Made by a program: the position numbers and the translations under genes. Shown piece after piece: positions 14,739 to 24,962 of a stretch of 48,004 bases of DNA; positions within the stretch are counted from its first letter, which is position 1, and every line of letters begins with the position of its first letter. Source of the DNA: Fimbriimonadaceae bacterium (lineage in GTDB: Bacteria; Armatimonadota; Fimbriimonadia; Fimbriimonadales; Fimbriimonadaceae); assembly GCA_023957775.1 (NCBI GenBank), contig JAMLGR010000021.1, positions 1 through 48,004 of the forward strand, given 5' to 3'. Below the pieces are notes generated by a model. The model did no database searches and was not told where the DNA came from. It saw only the letters and a program-made list of their open reading frames with translations.

Positions 14739-15196
14739 GTGCGCGCGAGAGCGCGCGCAACCAGCGAGGTGGAAGTCCTCGTCCGCTCTGCGCAACGGAG
14801 CGGTAGTTGAACATAACTGCGTCGCCGCGAGGCGGGGTGGAGAGCAATGGGAAACGAACGACCAGTCCGTAGGATGACGAACTCGATTCGGCATGGCGAA
14901 ACCGGCGAGCCTGCTGCCAAGAGGCGAAGCCCGAACTCCCCGCTGTCGGGGATGGCTTCCGGCGTTGAGGTTGCGTGTCAAAGCGTCCGGAAGGGATCGC
15001 GGTGTGGTTGGAGACGGAACGGTCGGAAGGTCGCGCGCGTGAATCGTGGAGATCTGGAGAGGCGTCGGGGCGTAGGCCCGCCGCCGCAAGGCAAATGGGT
15101 AATGATCGCTCCCTCTCCAGAAGTCAGAGCGCCCATAGTAGCGTCGAAGCCCGGCAACGCGGGCGGAGCAAAGGGGCGCAGGAAGGTGGATGCGTG

Positions 15197-16525
15197 ATGG
15201 AGGAACCGACGGAACGCCAGCCGGCGTCAGTGTCCGCGAGGACTAAGCAAGCCGGCGAGGTCCGAAGCCGCTGGGCGTGGACCGAGCCGACGGTTTGGAC
15301 GGACCGCATGTTGGAAGCCCTGGAAGACGGGGTGAAAGGCGGCAGGTGGTACAGCCTGCACGACAAGGCGTTCAGCGTCCGCGCTCTGGAGGCGGCCTTT
15401 GCCAAGGTGAAAGCCAACAAGGGCGCTCCCGGCGTGGACAACTGGACGATCTCGCGTTTCGAGGCGAACCTGGCAGCGGAGATATCCCGCCTGTCGAAGG
15501 CCCTGTTGGACGGGTCCTACCGTCCGCAGGCCGTGAAACGGGTGTGGATCGCCAAACCGGGGTCTTCGGAGAAGCGTCCGCTGGGGATACCGACGGTGCG
15601 CGACCGGGTGGTGCAAACCGCTCTTCGCAACGCGTTGGAGCCGATCTTTGAAAGAGAGTTCGAAGACGGGAGCTACGGCTTTCGTCCCGGACGCTCGTGC
15701 CACCAGGCCCTGAAAAGGGTGTGGGGGAATCTCAAGAACGGCTCGGTCTACGTGGCGGACGCGGACCTGAAGAACTTCTTCGACACGATTCCCCACGAGC
15801 TGATGCTCACGGGTCTAAAGGAGAAGGTCTCGGACGGGAAGATACTGGCGCTGGTGAAGCTGTATCTGGCGCAGGGTGTGATGGGAGAAGATCTGGAACC
15901 GGGCGAGGAGGGAACTCCCCAAGGTTCGGTCATCAGTCCTCTTCTTGCCAACATCGCCCTGCACGGGCTGGACTTCATGGCGCGCGCGCGCGGCATCGAG
16001 CTCGTTCGCTACGCGGACGACTTCGTGGCCCTTTGCGGCACTCGGGAGGGGGCGGCGTCGGCTCTGGCGGCGGTGGAGGACTGGACCAGTCGGAACGGTC
16101 TGAAGCTGCACCCGGAGAAGACGCGCCTCGTGGATTACGGCTCGGGGGAGAGTTTCGAGTTTCTAGGCTACAAGTTCAAGAAGGGCAGGGCCTTTCCGCG
16201 ACAGAAGAGCCTTAAGAAGCTGCGGGACAACATCCGCGCCCGGACTCCGCGCAATTCGGGACGCAGCCTTGAGGCGACCGTCTCCGATCTCAACCGGGTG
16301 CTTCAGGGCTGGTACCGCTATTTCCGGCACAGCTACCCGACGGCGTTCCCAGCCGTGGACCAGTTCGTGCGCCAGCGCCTCAGAGCGATTCTGAAAAAGC
16401 GCAAAGGGCGCGGACGGGTTCCACGCGGCAACGACTTCCAACGCTGGCCGAACGCCTACTTTCACGGTTTGGGTCTGTTCTCGACGGTGCAGGCCCACGC
16501 CGCCGACCAATCCTCTCGCAGGTGA
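15197..16525 (+). CDS. ltrA: Group II intron reverse transcriptase/maturase
   Basis: 442 residues. Reverse transcriptase blocks are complete: GVDNWTI (RT-0/1 region), PLGIPTVRDRVVQTAL, YGFRPGRSCHQAL, ADLKNFFDTIPH, EGTPQGSVISPLLANI and the catalytic VRYADDFVALC with YADD at 272-275. A maturase X domain follows (ATVSDLNRVLQGWYRYF). No HNH endonuclease domain is visible at the C-terminus. ATG 15197 is preceded by GGAAGGTGG; the open frame extends upstream to 14975, but that is ribozyme sequence. The protein helps the intron splice and reverse-transcribes it for movement. Confidence 0.92.
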   Translation: MEEPTERQPASVSARTKQAGEVRSRWAWTEPTVWTDRMLEALEDGVKGGRWYSLHDKAFSVRALEAAFAKVKANKGAPGVDNWTISRFEANLAAEISRLSKALLDGSYRPQAVKRVWIAKPGSSEKRPLGIPTVRDRVVQTALRNALEPIFEREFEDGSYGFRPGRSCHQALKRVWGNLKNGSVYVADADLKNFFDTIPHELMLTGLKEKVSDGKILALVKLYLAQGVMGEDLEPGEEGTPQGSVISPLLANIALHGLDFMARARGIELVRYADDFVALCGTREGAASALAAVEDWTSRNGLKLHPEKTRLVDYGSGESFEFLGYKFKKGRAFPRQKSLKKLRDNIRARTPRNSGRSLEATVSDLNRVLQGWYRYFRHSYPTAFPAVDQFVRQRLRAILKKRKGRGRVPRGNDFQRWPNAYFHGLGLFSTVQAHAADQSSRR

Positions 16526-18081: not shown

Positions 18082-19287
18082 ATGCCGGTCTTTGCCTACA
18101 CTGCCATCGATTCAAGCGGCCGCACGGTTCGCTCCGTGACGGAGGCTGACGACGAGCAGTTGGTCTTGGCGAAGCTTCGCGACCAAGGGCTCCACTGCAC
18201 GGAGATCAAGCGCTCCGGCAGCTCGATGAAGAAGAGCTCCTTCGGCAAGAAGAAGCTGAAGGTCAAAAGCCTCGTCGTGTTCTCGCGCCAGTTCGCGACC
18301 ATGATCGACGCGGGCATCCCGATCCTCCGGTGTCTCGACATCCTCGTCGGGCAGATGAAGGACCCGGTGATGCGCGAAACGGTCGGCGCCGTCGCCGTCG
18401 ATGTGAAGGGCGGCCTGTCGCTCAACGAAGCGCTGGGCAAGCACCCGCACGTCTTCAACAAGCTCTATGTGAACATGATCCGCGCCGCCGAACTCGGCGG
18501 CATCCTCGACCAGATCCTCGACCGGCTCGCCGGGTTCCTCGAGTACGAGGCCGAGATTCGCGGAAAGATCAAGGGCGCGATGATGTACCCCGTCATGGTG
18601 CTCTGCTTCTCGGTGCTGATGCTCTTCGTGCTGTTCAGCTTCGTGCTTCCCAAGTTCAAGGAGATCTTCACCGGCATGAACGTGGAGATGCCGCCGATGA
18701 CGGCCGCCCTCTTCTCGTTCGGCGACTTCATGCAGAAGTCGTGGTGGGTCGTGATCCTGCTCGCTGTCGGAAGCTTCTTCGGGCTCAAGATGTGGGGCAA
18801 GACGCCTCAGGGCCGGTATCAGCTCGACTTCCTGAAACTGCGGCTGCCGATCGTGGGCGAGCTGGCGCTCAAGATGAGCGTCGCCCGGTTCACCCGTACG
18901 TTCGGCACGCTCATCAGCAGCGGCGTCCCCATGCTGCGCAGCCTGGAGATCGTGGGAGAGACCTTGGGCAACGTCGTGTTGACCAAGGCGATCGACGACA
19001 CGCGCACCAGCATCCGCGAAGGGCAGAAGCTCTCCGCGCCGCTGGCCGCCTCCGGCCTGTTCCCCAACATGGTCACGACCATGATCGACGTCGGCGAGGA
19101 ATCCGGACGCCTCTCGGAGATGCTGGTCAAGATCGGCGACTTCTACGACCAGGAAGTCGAGTCGACGGTCAAGGGCCTCACGTCGATGATCGAGCCCATG
19201 CTGATCATCTTTATGGGTGTGATCGTCGGCTTTATCGCCATCTCGGTCATGACGCCGATCTTCAAACTCGTGAACAGCGTCTCGTAA
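18082..19287 (+). CDS. pilC: PilC/GspF type IV pilus-type inner-membrane platform protein
   Basis: 401 residues. The N-terminus MPVFAYTAIDSSGRTV and the two T2SSF domains (FSRQFATMIDAGIPILRCLD near 75-95; FTRTFGTLISSGVPMLRSLE near 275-295) define the PilC/GspF family. Three membrane segments are visible (MMYPVMVLCFSVLMLFVLFS, WVVILLAVGSFFGLK and the C-terminal LIIFMGVIVGFIAISV). It anchors the pilus or pseudopilus assembly motor in the inner membrane. AGGAGG lies 7 bases before the ATG. The other pilus genes are not in the window apart from the pseudopilin at 12469. It ends at a strong terminator. Confidence 0.93.
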   Translation: MPVFAYTAIDSSGRTVRSVTEADDEQLVLAKLRDQGLHCTEIKRSGSSMKKSSFGKKKLKVKSLVVFSRQFATMIDAGIPILRCLDILVGQMKDPVMRETVGAVAVDVKGGLSLNEALGKHPHVFNKLYVNMIRAAELGGILDQILDRLAGFLEYEAEIRGKIKGAMMYPVMVLCFSVLMLFVLFSFVLPKFKEIFTGMNVEMPPMTAALFSFGDFMQKSWWVVILLAVGSFFGLKMWGKTPQGRYQLDFLKLRLPIVGELALKMSVARFTRTFGTLISSGVPMLRSLEIVGETLGNVVLTKAIDDTRTSIREGQKLSAPLAASGLFPNMVTTMIDVGEESGRLSEMLVKIGDFYDQEVESTVKGLTSMIEPMLIIFMGVIVGFIAISVMTPIFKLVNSVS

Positions 19288-19297
19288 CAACTTGGTT

Positions 19298-19328
19298 CCG
19301 GGCGAGTGGATGCTCGCCCGGGTTTCTT
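19298..19328 (+). terminator. Rho-independent terminator after pilC
   Basis: CCGGGCGAG pairs with CTCGCCCGG around TGGATG, then GTTTCTTC. It sits 10 bases after the pilC stop. Confidence 0.8.
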
Positions 19329-19425
19329 CAATGTCCCACTTGGGACCGCGGTTACGGGAAGGGCCAGGAAGGCGCTTTCCGGAGCCGGCTAGGATGGCCG
19401 GCTGGAATGGTCAACGGAGTGTTGT

Positions 19426-20685
19426 ATGTCTGAATCGATTCGTACGCATCAGGACCCGGAAGGGCTGGTTCTTCGCTACCTCAAGAAGCCTACGCCGGAC
19501 ATCAAAGACCTGATCATGGTGCAGTACGCGGGGCTTGTCGAGCGGATCGCTCGCCGCTTCAGTGGGCTGGAGCCGTTCGAAGACCTGTGCCAGGTGGGTT
19601 TCATCGGTCTGCTGAACGCGCTCGGGAAGTTCGACCCCGAGGCCGGAGTGCGGTTCAACACCTATGCGACGTACCTGGTGGCGGGAGAGATCAAGCACTA
19701 CCTGCGCGACCGGACGCAGACGATCCGTCACCCCGCGTGGCTGCAGGAGCTGCGCCACAAGGTGAACCGGGCGGCAGGCGTTCTGCAGCAGACTCATGGC
19801 CGGACCCCCACCGAGCGGGAGATCGCCGACGCCCTTGGCGTGAGCGAGACCGCGGTGAGGGAGGTGTTCGTCACCCAGGAGATGCTTCGGGTGTCGTCCC
19901 TCGACGCGCCGGCCCCGGGTGATGAGGACGGATCGGGAGAGACCGAGAACCTCGACGCCGCGGCGTTCTGCCCGGAGCAACTCAGCGTCGAGGACCGCAT
20001 GATGCTCGAGAACGCGATGAAGCAGCTCCGCACGCTCGAGCGGGACGTGCTCATGCATTTCCACTTCGACATGATGAACCAGACGGAGATCGCCTCCAAG
20101 CTTGGGATTTCCTGCAACTACGTGTCCCACATCCTTCGGCAGTCCCTCGCGAAACTGCGCAAGATCCTCGCCGGCGAAGAGGAGAAGGACCGCGTGCTGC
20201 GCCGCCAGGCCTCCGAGATCGACTACGAGGTGGTGGACGCCGAGACCGGTGCCTATACCGAAGCCTATTTCCACACGCGTCTGGCCGAAGAGGTTCACCG
20301 CGCTTCCGCCGCCGAGGGGTCCGTGGGCTTGGTGTGCGTGAACTTCAAAGGGCTCGAGACCTTGCGCTCGTTCTACGGCGACGCGAGCGTCACCGACTTC
20401 ATGGCCGACGCTGCCGAGTTCCTGCGCGAGAACGTGCGCCGTATCGACATCGTTGCCCGGATGGGGGTGAGTGGCTTTGGTGTGATCCTGCCCGTGAACG
20501 GTCCCAACGTCGTGCTGGTTCGCGAGCGTCTCGTCCGCAAGATTCAGGATTGGATGAGCGGGCGCCTTGCGCAAAACGGTCCGATCGAGGTGGAACTGGG
20601 CCAGGCCCTTTACCCGCAGGATGGGAAGACCGCGAAGACGCTCCTGAAGAAGTCGGCGCTCAAGCCGCTGAGCGAAGCGGCGTAG
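19426..20685 (+). CDS. SigB/SigF-type sigma factor fused to a degenerate GGDEF domain
   Basis: 419 residues. Residues 1-250 are a group 3 sigma-70 factor: region 2 (LVERIARRFSGLEPFEDLCQ, GVRFNTYATYLVAGEIKHYL), region 3 (WLQELRHKVNRAAGVLQQ, TPTEREIADALGVS) and region 4 (MNQTEIASKLGISCNYVSH). Residues 262-415 follow the diguanylate cyclase fold: DAETGAYTEAYFHTRL, FKGLETLRSFYGDA, RRIDIVARM and ALYPQDGKTAKTLLKKS. The signature GGDEF is replaced by GVSGF (347-351) and the metal-binding Asp before FK is Asn306, so it cannot be an active cyclase. The I-site RxxD (R338-R-I-D341) is kept five residues before the signature, so c-di-GMP binding is plausible. GGAG lies 9 bases upstream of the ATG. Confidence 0.88.
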   Translation: MSESIRTHQDPEGLVLRYLKKPTPDIKDLIMVQYAGLVERIARRFSGLEPFEDLCQVGFIGLLNALGKFDPEAGVRFNTYATYLVAGEIKHYLRDRTQTIRHPAWLQELRHKVNRAAGVLQQTHGRTPTEREIADALGVSETAVREVFVTQEMLRVSSLDAPAPGDEDGSGETENLDAAAFCPEQLSVEDRMMLENAMKQLRTLERDVLMHFHFDMMNQTEIASKLGISCNYVSHILRQSLAKLRKILAGEEEKDRVLRRQASEIDYEVVDAETGAYTEAYFHTRLAEEVHRASAAEGSVGLVCVNFKGLETLRSFYGDASVTDFMADAAEFLRENVRRIDIVARMGVSGFGVILPVNGPNVVLVRERLVRKIQDWMSGRLAQNGPIEVELGQALYPQDGKTAKTLLKKSALKPLSEAA

Positions 20686-20722: not shown

Positions 20723-22009
20723 ATGCCCAGCGCGATCCCAGTGGCCCACGACTTCAACTGTCCGTGGTGCTGGATCGGGCTGTTCCATGCGCGGAGGCTT
20801 CAACAGGAGTTCGGGGTCGCCATCGATTGGAGGCCCTACGAACTCTATCCCGACACCCGCCCCTGGCCCGAGCCGATCGCGGTCCCGCCGGTCAGCGGGA
20901 CGCGCCCGCCCACTCCGGGCCGACTGACCCTCGCGTACGCCGCCGAGGGCATGGCCGCTCCCGCCGTGGCGCGACCCAAGAGGATGCGGACGCACGCGGC
21001 CCATGAAGCCGTGGAGTATGCGAAGACCGAAGGCGTCGCCGACGCCCTCGTCGAGCGGTTCTACCGCGGGTATTGGGAGCGCGGACTGGACCTTGCCCAG
21101 CCGTCGGTGCTGGCCAACCTGGCCCAAGGCACGGTGAAGGATGTCGGGAAGATGCTCGACGCCGTCCGAGACCGGTCGTTCGCCCCAAACATCGTCGGAT
21201 TCGACGACGACGCCTATGCGAGCGGCGTGTTCCACGTGCCGACGTTCTGGATCGGCGAAAGGCGCCTTGCCGAGCAGCCGTACGTCGCCATTCGATCCGC
21301 GATGGAGGAGGCGGGTTACAGTCCTCGGGCGACGGGGGCACCCTACGCAGTCGTGCACTTCGACAAGGCACCCTCCGACCGGCCCCGCGTCGTGATGATG
21401 ATGGTCGCGACGATCGACGGCAAGACGACGACCGGCACGCGCGACGAGCCGGTGATGGACCTCGGGTCCGAGGTCGACCACGCGGCGATGAGACAGGTCG
21501 AGAGTGCCGTGGACGCCGTGATGATCGGCGCGAACACGCTCCGGAGCACTCCAAAGCTCTGGTACGACGCCCGGCTCCAGCGCATCGTCGTGACGCGCTC
21601 GGGGCGGGTGGACTTCGCGGCTCGGTTCTTCACCGACGCTCCCTCCCGGGCGGTGATTGCGACGCCCGTGTCGGCAGCGCTCCTGGCTCCGGCGGACGTG
21701 GGTCTTTGGCGCGGAGGGGACGAAGGGGTCGACTTCGAGGCCCTCCTTCGCTGGCTGCATGTCGAGCGGGGGGTGAACACGCTCTTGGTCGAGGGAGGGA
21801 GCGACCTCAACGCCGCGCTCTTGACGCTCGACCTTGTGGACGAGCTCTTCCTGACGATCGCACCCAAGATCAAATTGGGGGCCGAAACCCCGACGATCGC
21901 CGACGGCGCGCCTCTTGCGCGGGACCAGGTGCGCCGGTTCGAGTTGGCGGAGCACCACCGGGTCGGAGACGAGCTCTTCGTTCGGTATCGCCGGGTGAAG
22001 GGAAGCTGA
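20723..22009 (+). CDS. Fusion of a DsbA/FrnE-like thioredoxin-fold domain and a RibD-C reductase
   Basis: 428 residues in one uninterrupted frame. Residues 1-200 are DsbA/FrnE-like: the active site FNCPWCWIG has Cys13 and Cys16, and GVFHVPTFWIGERRL carries the cis-proline (VPTF). Residues about 225-425 are a RibD C-terminal/dihydrofolate-reductase-like domain: VVMMMVATIDGKTTTG, VDAVMIGANTLRSTP, LLVEGGSDLNAALL and DELFLTIAPKIKLG. The first half would do disulfide or glutathione-type redox chemistry, the second NADPH-dependent reduction of a pteridine- or pyrimidine-like substrate. No signal peptide, so cytoplasmic. Combining them in one chain suggests coupled redox steps, but the substrate is unknown. 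It is followed at once by the ABC exporter genes. Confidence 0.85.
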   Translation: MPSAIPVAHDFNCPWCWIGLFHARRLQQEFGVAIDWRPYELYPDTRPWPEPIAVPPVSGTRPPTPGRLTLAYAAEGMAAPAVARPKRMRTHAAHEAVEYAKTEGVADALVERFYRGYWERGLDLAQPSVLANLAQGTVKDVGKMLDAVRDRSFAPNIVGFDDDAYASGVFHVPTFWIGERRLAEQPYVAIRSAMEEAGYSPRATGAPYAVVHFDKAPSDRPRVVMMMVATIDGKTTTGTRDEPVMDLGSEVDHAAMRQVESAVDAVMIGANTLRSTPKLWYDARLQRIVVTRSGRVDFAARFFTDAPSRAVIATPVSAALLAPADVGLWRGGDEGVDFEALLRWLHVERGVNTLLVEGGSDLNAALLTLDLVDELFLTIAPKIKLGAETPTIADGAPLARDQVRRFELAEHHRVGDELFVRYRRVKGS

Positions 22010-24247: not shown

Positions 24248-24253
24248 CCACCA

Positions 24254-24716
24254 TTTGGGAGTGCGCGACCTTGGTCGCGCCTTCCACCCGAGCGGCTTGC
24301 CGCGAGTCCGGCGGGGAGCCGGACAAGTCCGGCGGGGGACAAGGCGACGCGCAAGCGCGCGCACTCCCAGGCGGGGGGCAGGCGGGATTTGGGAGTGCGC
24401 GACCTTGGTCGCGCCCTCGACGCGAGCGGCTTGCCGCGAGTCGGGCGGGGAGCCGGACAAGTCCGGCGGGGACAAGGCGACGCGCAAGCGCGCGCACTCC
24501 CAGGCGGGGGGCAGGCGGGATTTGGGAGTGCGCGACCTTGGTCGCGCCTTCCACGCGAGCGGCTTGCCGCGAGTCGGGCGGGGAGCCGGACAAGTCCGGC
24601 GGGGGACAAGGCGACGCGCAAGCGCGCGCACTCCCAGGCGGGGGGCAAGCGACGCGCAAGCGCGCGCACTCCCAGAGCCAAGGCGACGCGTGGGCGCGCG
24701 CACTACCAGGGGGGCG
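24254..24716. repeat. Three tandem copies of a 133-bp palindromic element
   Basis: Units begin at 24257, 24391 and 24524 (spacing 134 and 133), each opening GGGAGTGCGCGACCTTGGTC and closing CAAGCGCGCGCACTCCCAG. The ends are inverted repeats of each other (GGGAGTGCGCG / CGCGCACTCCC). In the middle GCCGGAC-AA-GTCCGGC makes another hairpin. After copy three, the right end is repeated twice more (to 24711). The copies differ at a few bases only (CACCCGAGC, GACGCGAGC, CACGCGAGC). A shortened relative lies at 41719. No gene is inside: the open frames on both strands follow from the repeat's GC-rich composition. Confidence 0.9.
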
Positions 24717-24962
24717 CTAGGGGCGAGGGGCGCGGGCCACGCCCTCTGTCCGCACGTGGATCAGCCGCTCGCGGTGGTCGTTGAACATGCACAGCGCCCG
24801 CACGCCGAACTGGCGGGAGACGCTGACGGCGGTCTCCCAATCGAGGGGATTGACCTTGCCGTCCTTGCATCGCTCGGCTTCCAAATCGAATCGGGGGCAG
24901 TCTCGGCAGTACACTTGAATGTCCGGACGCCCCAAGAGGGGCGGAGGGTGCAGGACCATCAT
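24717..24962 (-). CDS. Small four-cysteine protein, family not recognised
   Basis: About 81 residues. The core YCRDCPRFDLEAERC then, 25 residues later, RALCMFNDHRE gives C-x2-C-x9-C...C, which suggests a small metal- or iron-sulfur-binding protein. The rest is soluble and basic at the end. The ATG at 24962 (or 24959) overlaps the start codon of the divergent secreted protein at 24961, so its promoter would lie inside that gene; a later GTG just before YCRDC is an alternative start. The sequence looks constrained (regular spacing, codon use like neighbours), but I cannot name a function. Confidence 0.55.
   Translation of the reverse strand: MMVLHPPPLLGRPDIQVYCRDCPRFDLEAERCKDGKVNPLDWETAVSVSRQFGVRALCMFNDHRERLIHVRTEGVARAPRP

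Follow-up and report, generated by a model that had tools for sequence, protein, structure and literature searches.

In the bacterial phylum Armatimonadota, one kind of sigma factor is likely to carry a receptor for c-di-GMP at the C-terminal end of its own chain, derived from a diguanylate cyclase that kept its product-inhibition site (I-site). The receptor would be a GGDEF domain; that this domain binds c-di-GMP can be expected with some confidence, and, given such binding, control of the sigma factor in cis would follow very probably. On balance, a wider reading is also favoured, in which these proteins form a phylum-wide sigma class: c-di-GMP would gate them directly and in cis, so that the subunit that selects promoters for RNA polymerase would itself receive the second messenger, and the class, linked to type IV pili and restrained by CsrA, would act as a core lifestyle switch of the phylum.

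The protein was found in a window of 48,004 nucleotides (contig JAMLGR010000021.1), the whole stretch of DNA that was analysed, from a metagenome-assembled genome (MAG) of the Fimbriimonadales (G000; 3.5 Mb, 97% complete). The first-pass annotation had described a single frame that joins sigma regions 2, 3 and 4 to a GGDEF domain, and the uninterrupted translation and the Pfam matches bear this out (Table 1). These matches comprise Sigma70_r2 (residues 33–97, 57 bits), Sigma70_r3 (108–172, 51 bits), Sigma70_r4 (197–246, 45 bits) and GGDEF (270–409, 51.1 bits against a cut-off of 23.8, E 1.6e-13). All four domains are matched in each of the 95 proteins of an independent alignment (A1); the fusion is therefore no assembly artefact.

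Table 1. Features of the fusion locus and their positions in the window.
Feature	Position	Strand	Basis or remark
pilC	18082..19287	+	T2SSF, 216 bits; directly upstream of the fusion gene
Leader hairpin GCCAGGAAGGC	19363..19373	+	3-bp stem, weaker; about 60 nt before the start
Leader hairpin AGCCGGCUAGGAUGGCCGGCU	19383..19403	+	GGA in loop; about 34 nt before the start
Leader hairpin CAACGGAGUGUUG	19412..19424	+	GGA loop at the Shine–Dalgarno sequence; predicted site of CsrA/RsmA type
Sigma factor–GGDEF fusion gene	19426..20685	+	419 aa; ATG at 19426, stop at 20683–20685; uninterrupted frame
Sigma-70 regions 2, 3, 4 (residues 33–247)	19522..20166	+	Pfam, TIGR02980, Foldseek
Continuous predicted helix (residues 230–262)	20113..20211	+	AlphaFold2; region 4.2 recognition helix into GGDEF stalk
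GGDEF domain, A-site degenerate (residues 270–409)	20233..20652	+	Pfam and predicted-structure alignment
Helix R285-x-x-E288-E289-x-x-R292	20278..20301	+	Conserved in 106–107 of 108 fusion proteins
I-site R338-R-I-D341 (PleD R359-x-x-D362)	20437..20448	+	108/108 aligned, 117/118 overall
Degenerate A-site G347-V-S-G-F351	20464..20478	+	Translation and alignment
R368	20527..20529	+	103/108

By its sequence, the fusion protein is a group-3-like (SigB/F/FliA-type) sigma factor. The earlier assignment to the SigB/SigF type stands in so far as TIGR02980 (SigB/F/G) is the best sigma model and regions 2–4 are present; the score (182.6 bits) lies under the curated cut-off of that family (234.35). In a Foldseek search with the predicted model, the sigma part matches sigma factors in holoenzymes, including the SigB–RNAP structure from S. 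aureus (8x6g). Region 4.2 of the fused sigmas contains an ISxNYVS-type motif. A tree built from the sigma part places all fused proteins in one clade (support 0.93), and sigmas of about 250–275 aa with the motif ISQMHVSR, common in outer families, form a separate one. The fused-sigma clade also holds two other proteins. One of these (L227, G061 C14; 263 aa) is without a GGDEF tail, apparently through secondary loss of the domain; the other (L229, G003 C20, family f6; 438 aa) has a tail that is not recognisable from the match. A SigB/F-type promoter motif (GTTT-N-GGG[AT]A) was sought upstream of the sigma gene and found in 0/105 and 4/105 cases, no more often than in shuffled sequences, and there is thus no evidence of SigB-like autoregulation.

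The fusion, which the first-pass annotation had allowed might be confined to one assembly, is present in about 140 Armatimonadota genomes from some 30 families, usually as one copy per genome. A GTDB scan with the single window protein, which reaches close relatives only, gave 35 full-length homologues, all in MAGs or genomes of Armatimonadota. When 291 Armatimonadota genomes were searched, whole-length matches were obtained in most families of the phylum; families f24, f25, f39–f43 and f45 gave sigma-length matches only, or none.

Judged from its residues, the GGDEF domain of the fusion is catalytically dead. Conservation was assessed on 108 non-identical fusion proteins, which are 35–74% identical to the window protein; ten further, more distant members were read besides. 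In the window protein, the annotated replacement of GGDEF by GVSGF and of the metal-binding aspartate by N306 was read correctly, and further A-site positions are occupied by R314 and T323. A canonical GG[DE]EF motif is found in none of the 108 proteins, with 88 different pentamers at its position, and column entropy amounts to 3.1 bits at residue 306, 3.5 at 314, 3.0 at 323 and 3.2 at 349. The combination of D306, [DE]349 and E350 is likewise found in 0/108, with no catalytic set anywhere in the alignment, which upholds the earlier exclusion of c-di-GMP synthesis; in 51 of the proteins, none of the five A-site residues is kept. Two outer members (L123 and L200) still read YGGGTF and have D-x-D in place, which fits descent from a true cyclase.

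While the A-site has drifted, the I-site has been retained. Between the RxxD motif R338-R-I-D341 and the GGDEF position there are exactly five residues, as annotated. Of all residues in the GGDEF half, R338 and D341 alone are invariant in the 108 proteins. They are followed by E288, E289 and R292 (107/108 each), R285 and P356 (106/108 each) and R368. Alignment A1 gives the same picture: 21 of 419 columns are invariant, and only two of them, R338 and D341, lie in the GGDEF half. Nearby residues 339, 340 and 348–350 are variable (entropy 1.7–3.6 bits). Since all six arginine triplets are used at R338 and both aspartate triplets at D341, it is selection, not recent common descent, that keeps these two residues in place. 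Among the ten more distant members, nine keep RxxD; the exception (L204, from a 69% complete MAG) reads RPAN. The alignment check that had been proposed, with RxxD kept and GGDEF variable, thus comes out clearly in favour of ligand sensing (RxxD in 117 of 118 homologues, the catalytic set in 0/108), and random loss of RxxD among homologues is not what is seen. In PleD numbering, we take R338 and D341 to correspond to R359 and D362, R368 to R390 (a primary I-site arginine) and R292 to R313 of the neighbouring domain (the secondary I-site arginine); together, these four residues make up the complete set of c-di-GMP contacts in product-inhibited PleD.

How much weight this conservation can bear depends on what other GGDEF domains do. 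As a first control, the 67 canonical cyclase domains with the best scores in the phylum were compared. Of these, 65 have R338, 61 have D341, 39 each have R292 and R285, 17 have E288 and 42 have E289. RxxD as a whole is kept in 61/67; being near-universal in canonical cyclases, it is therefore ancestral and was retained in the fusion, not gained. RxxD conservation alone as proof of sensing was dropped for this reason, in line with the caution already voiced in the first-pass annotation; conservation of the motif could be due in part to fold or ancestry. What speaks for sensing is the retention of RxxD after catalysis had been lost. A stronger signal comes from the extra I-site arginines and from the helix R-L-x-E-E-x-x-R, which is specific to the fusion and reached fixation there alone (p 1e-11 to 1e-27, kinship ignored). 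The second control set (n = 27), not chosen for high score, combined domains from the source genome with domains that were, for the most part, the lowest scorers of five genomes; L240, likewise a low scorer, was excluded as it appears to be the fusion of genome G008 itself. In these non-fused domains RxxD is kept in 15/27 (Fisher p 2e-9 against the fusion), and its absence from the other 12 implies that GGDEF domains can readily lose it.

The presence of c-di-GMP signalling in the source genome follows from its other matches, of which seven are to GGDEF, one is to EAL and three are to PilZ. Genus g6 allows a closer comparison, as eleven of its genomes have the fusion and nine are without it. 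The fusion-bearing genomes have 7–18 GGDEF matches each. Four genomes (G081, G082, G089 and G099) are devoid of any GGDEF protein, and all four lack the fusion; three of them are 98–99% complete. Here, c-di-GMP synthesis has apparently been lost together with the fused sigma factor. The other five fusion-less genomes still have GGDEF proteins, and the fusion is therefore dispensable. A stand-alone RsbW-type anti-sigma factor was not evident in 19 of 21 relatives screened, the source genome included; in these 19, HATPase_c_2 matches occur only in long kinase-like frames, and the remaining two have short HATPase_c_2 frames.

These observations bear on a different account, in which the GGDEF domain does no more than dimerise or dock onto a protein, perhaps a partner in the pilus machinery, and R338, D341 and the EE..R helix form a protein interface that contacts no nucleotide. 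Some degenerate GGDEF proteins do work via protein contacts (PMC5635695), and the helix R285/E288/E289/R292 is conserved beyond the needs of an I-site. This account is nevertheless unlikely: the residues kept, in four separate places, are exactly the c-di-GMP ligands of PleD (R313, R359, D362 and R390), and genomes of genus g6 that are free of diguanylate cyclases are without the fusion. It is very improbable that the domain is an evolutionary relic, with RxxD as a fold-stabilising turn and the fusion devoid of a sensory role. RxxD is indeed common in GGDEF domains anyway, as the best-scoring cyclases demonstrate, but a relic would not hold R338 in every protein of the alignment across families that are about 37% identical, with the rest of the domain drifting, and cyclase-type domains elsewhere often lose RxxD without loss of fold (12/27). 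Hardly to be expected at all is the sensing of another nucleotide (GTP, ppGpp or another cyclic dinucleotide) via a remodelled A-site: besides c-di-GMP, PleD can bind pppGpp (PDB 9g86), yet the base and metal positions 306, 314, 323, 349 and 350 rank with the most variable of the domain, contrary to what a ligand pocket would show. Another cyclic dinucleotide may conceivably occupy the I-site.

The reading preferred here, a c-di-GMP receptor within the sigma chain, also agrees with the predicted structure. An AlphaFold2 model built with 95 sequences has a mean pLDDT of 84, with residues 271–410 of the GGDEF domain mostly at 90–97; with a pTM of 0.42, the geometry between domains is not predicted. 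Foldseek matches the model to GGDEF structures as well as to sigma factors. In VIA-align, it aligns with PleD–c-di-GMP (2v0n; Z 18.2, rmsd 2.7 Å, 147 residues) and with a Geobacter GGDEF domain (6d9m; Z 18.9, 155 residues, 3.1 Å); Z values of 17–19 to PleD, DgcB and DgcR complexes place the fold with the kind of GGDEF domain seen with bound c-di-GMP. The helix that leads out of region 4.2 aligns with the coiled-coil stalks of GCN4-WspR (3i5c; 178 residues, 3.0 Å) and DgcB–c-di-GMP (6ttr). The model suggests that a change in GGDEF pairing could be passed directly to sigma region 4 via this helix.

In the proposed mechanism, c-di-GMP, probably as an intercalated dimer, would bind to R338, D341 and R368 of one chain and to R292 of a second. 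The bound ligand would cross-link the GGDEF domains of the two chains, in the manner of PleD or WspR under product inhibition. As the last helix of sigma region 4 runs on into the GGDEF stalk, such pairing would change how region 4 docks to the beta-flap and the −35 element, or prevent it from docking. The GGDEF domain would then work as a built-in, c-di-GMP-dependent anti-sigma factor. A sigma factor that is off at high c-di-GMP is slightly preferred over one that is activated, by analogy with WhiG and with the inhibition of PleD.

The regulon of such a sigma factor would likely include type IV pilus or surface-lifestyle genes. In the window, pilC precedes the fusion gene with a gap of 137–138 nt. 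Of the 108 loci, 79 show the same arrangement, with pilC directly upstream on the same strand (gaps from −5 to 388 nt, typically about 100); by tblastn, pilC lies upstream at 81 of the 102 loci that have at least 700 nt of upstream sequence, and it does so at six of the ten more distant loci. The gene order pilB-pilT-pilC-sigma-GGDEF recurs in many Armatimonadota families; the pilC linkage is absent in families f12, f13, f14 and f19. Elsewhere in the window, a group II intron reverse transcriptase/maturase (RVT_1 134 bits, GIIM 55 bits) is encoded at 14975–16525 (+). The frame directly downstream of the fusion gene (20723–22009, +) combines a DSBA-like thioredoxin domain with a RibD_C reductase, itself an unusual fusion. 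At 24250–24720, head-to-tail repeats run through coding-like frames (for example GATKVAHSQIPPAPRLGVRALARRL in translated ORFs); they are probably a minisatellite-like array between genes.

Translation of the fusion mRNA is probably held down by CsrA, as the predicted structure of its leader suggests. The leader (19288–19425, +) folds more stably than shuffled sequences (z −3.3), and an Rfam search with it gave no credible match. Among 52 Fimbriimonadales leaders, a GGA hairpin occurs at the Shine–Dalgarno sequence in 32 (shuffle mean 4.2), at −45 to −26 in 37 (shuffle mean 2.7) and at −72 to −50 in 18 (shuffle mean 3.2). The hairpins at −45 to −26 comprise 34 different stem-loop sequences, i.e. 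they covary. At the same three positions, the counts are 6, 5 and 1 of 47 for pilC leaders and 5, 4 and 2 of 141 for leaders of other neighbouring genes. The trait expected of CsrA-controlled mRNAs, ANGGA in hairpin loops with one of them at the Shine–Dalgarno sequence, is common among the fusion leaders, against 3–13% for other genes at the Shine–Dalgarno and upstream positions. The source genome encodes csrA (C7:18551–18706, 87 bits), and so do 11/11 sampled genomes of the same family. In glgC, which is repressed by CsrA, a GGA-loop hairpin lies just upstream, and a further GGA site lies at the Shine–Dalgarno sequence (PMC7652899). The layout of the fusion leader is alike, including the site at the Shine–Dalgarno sequence; here, however, it is predicted from sequence only, and it stands before a sigma factor gene and in Armatimonadota.

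If the domain does bind c-di-GMP, promoter choice would be set in one protein, with no intervening kinase, anti-sigma factor or transcription factor. The protein would also exemplify a path from enzyme to receptor, in which a cyclase was fused to a sigma factor, catalysis was lost and product inhibition was kept. For a poorly studied phylum, this provides a first regulatory hypothesis that links c-di-GMP, CsrA and type IV pili, and it makes specific point-mutant tests possible.

Each component has counterparts among known systems. The fusion resembles SigB, SigF and SigG in that theirs is the best-matching subfamily, in its complete regions 2–4 and in the structural match to S. aureus SigB. 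It differs in its score under the family cut-off, in ISxNYVS instead of ISQMHVSR and in the GGDEF tail; for most of the 21 relatives screened, moreover, no stand-alone RsbW/SpoIIAB-type partner was found. Sigma factors regulated by a C-terminal extension of the same chain are represented by CorE and ECF41, which belong to the ECF class without region 3; the ligands known for them are metals, and they are not known to have a second-messenger domain.

PopA, SgmT and PelD each have a dead GGDEF domain and act as c-di-GMP effectors (PMC7996900, PMC12564702, PMC10519070), and binding in PopA and SgmT is via the I-site (PMC7996900, PMC12564702). They share with the fusion the GGDEF fold, the dead A-site and a conserved RxxD at PleD spacing; their outputs (protein recruitment, a histidine kinase, a polysaccharide synthase) do not include a sigma factor. 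Dead-GGDEF I-site receptors, c-di-GMP control of sigma factors via RsiG and tail-regulated ECF sigmas are thus already known. A protein that unites them in one chain was not found in the open literature, which gave nothing relevant on a sigma–GGDEF fusion or on c-di-GMP in Armatimonadetes. The closest parallel is RsiG–WhiG of Streptomyces, called the only known sigma–anti-sigma complex targeted by c-di-GMP; RsiG, reported only from Actinobacteria, holds the ligand in helices with the motif E(X)3S(X)2R(X)3Q(X)3D (PMC8325347). In both cases c-di-GMP controls an alternative sigma factor, one that belongs to the FliA/WhiG/SigB/F branch, here as a prediction. In RsiG–WhiG, the ligand lies between two proteins, whereas the presumed receptor in Armatimonadota is a GGDEF domain in the sigma chain itself.
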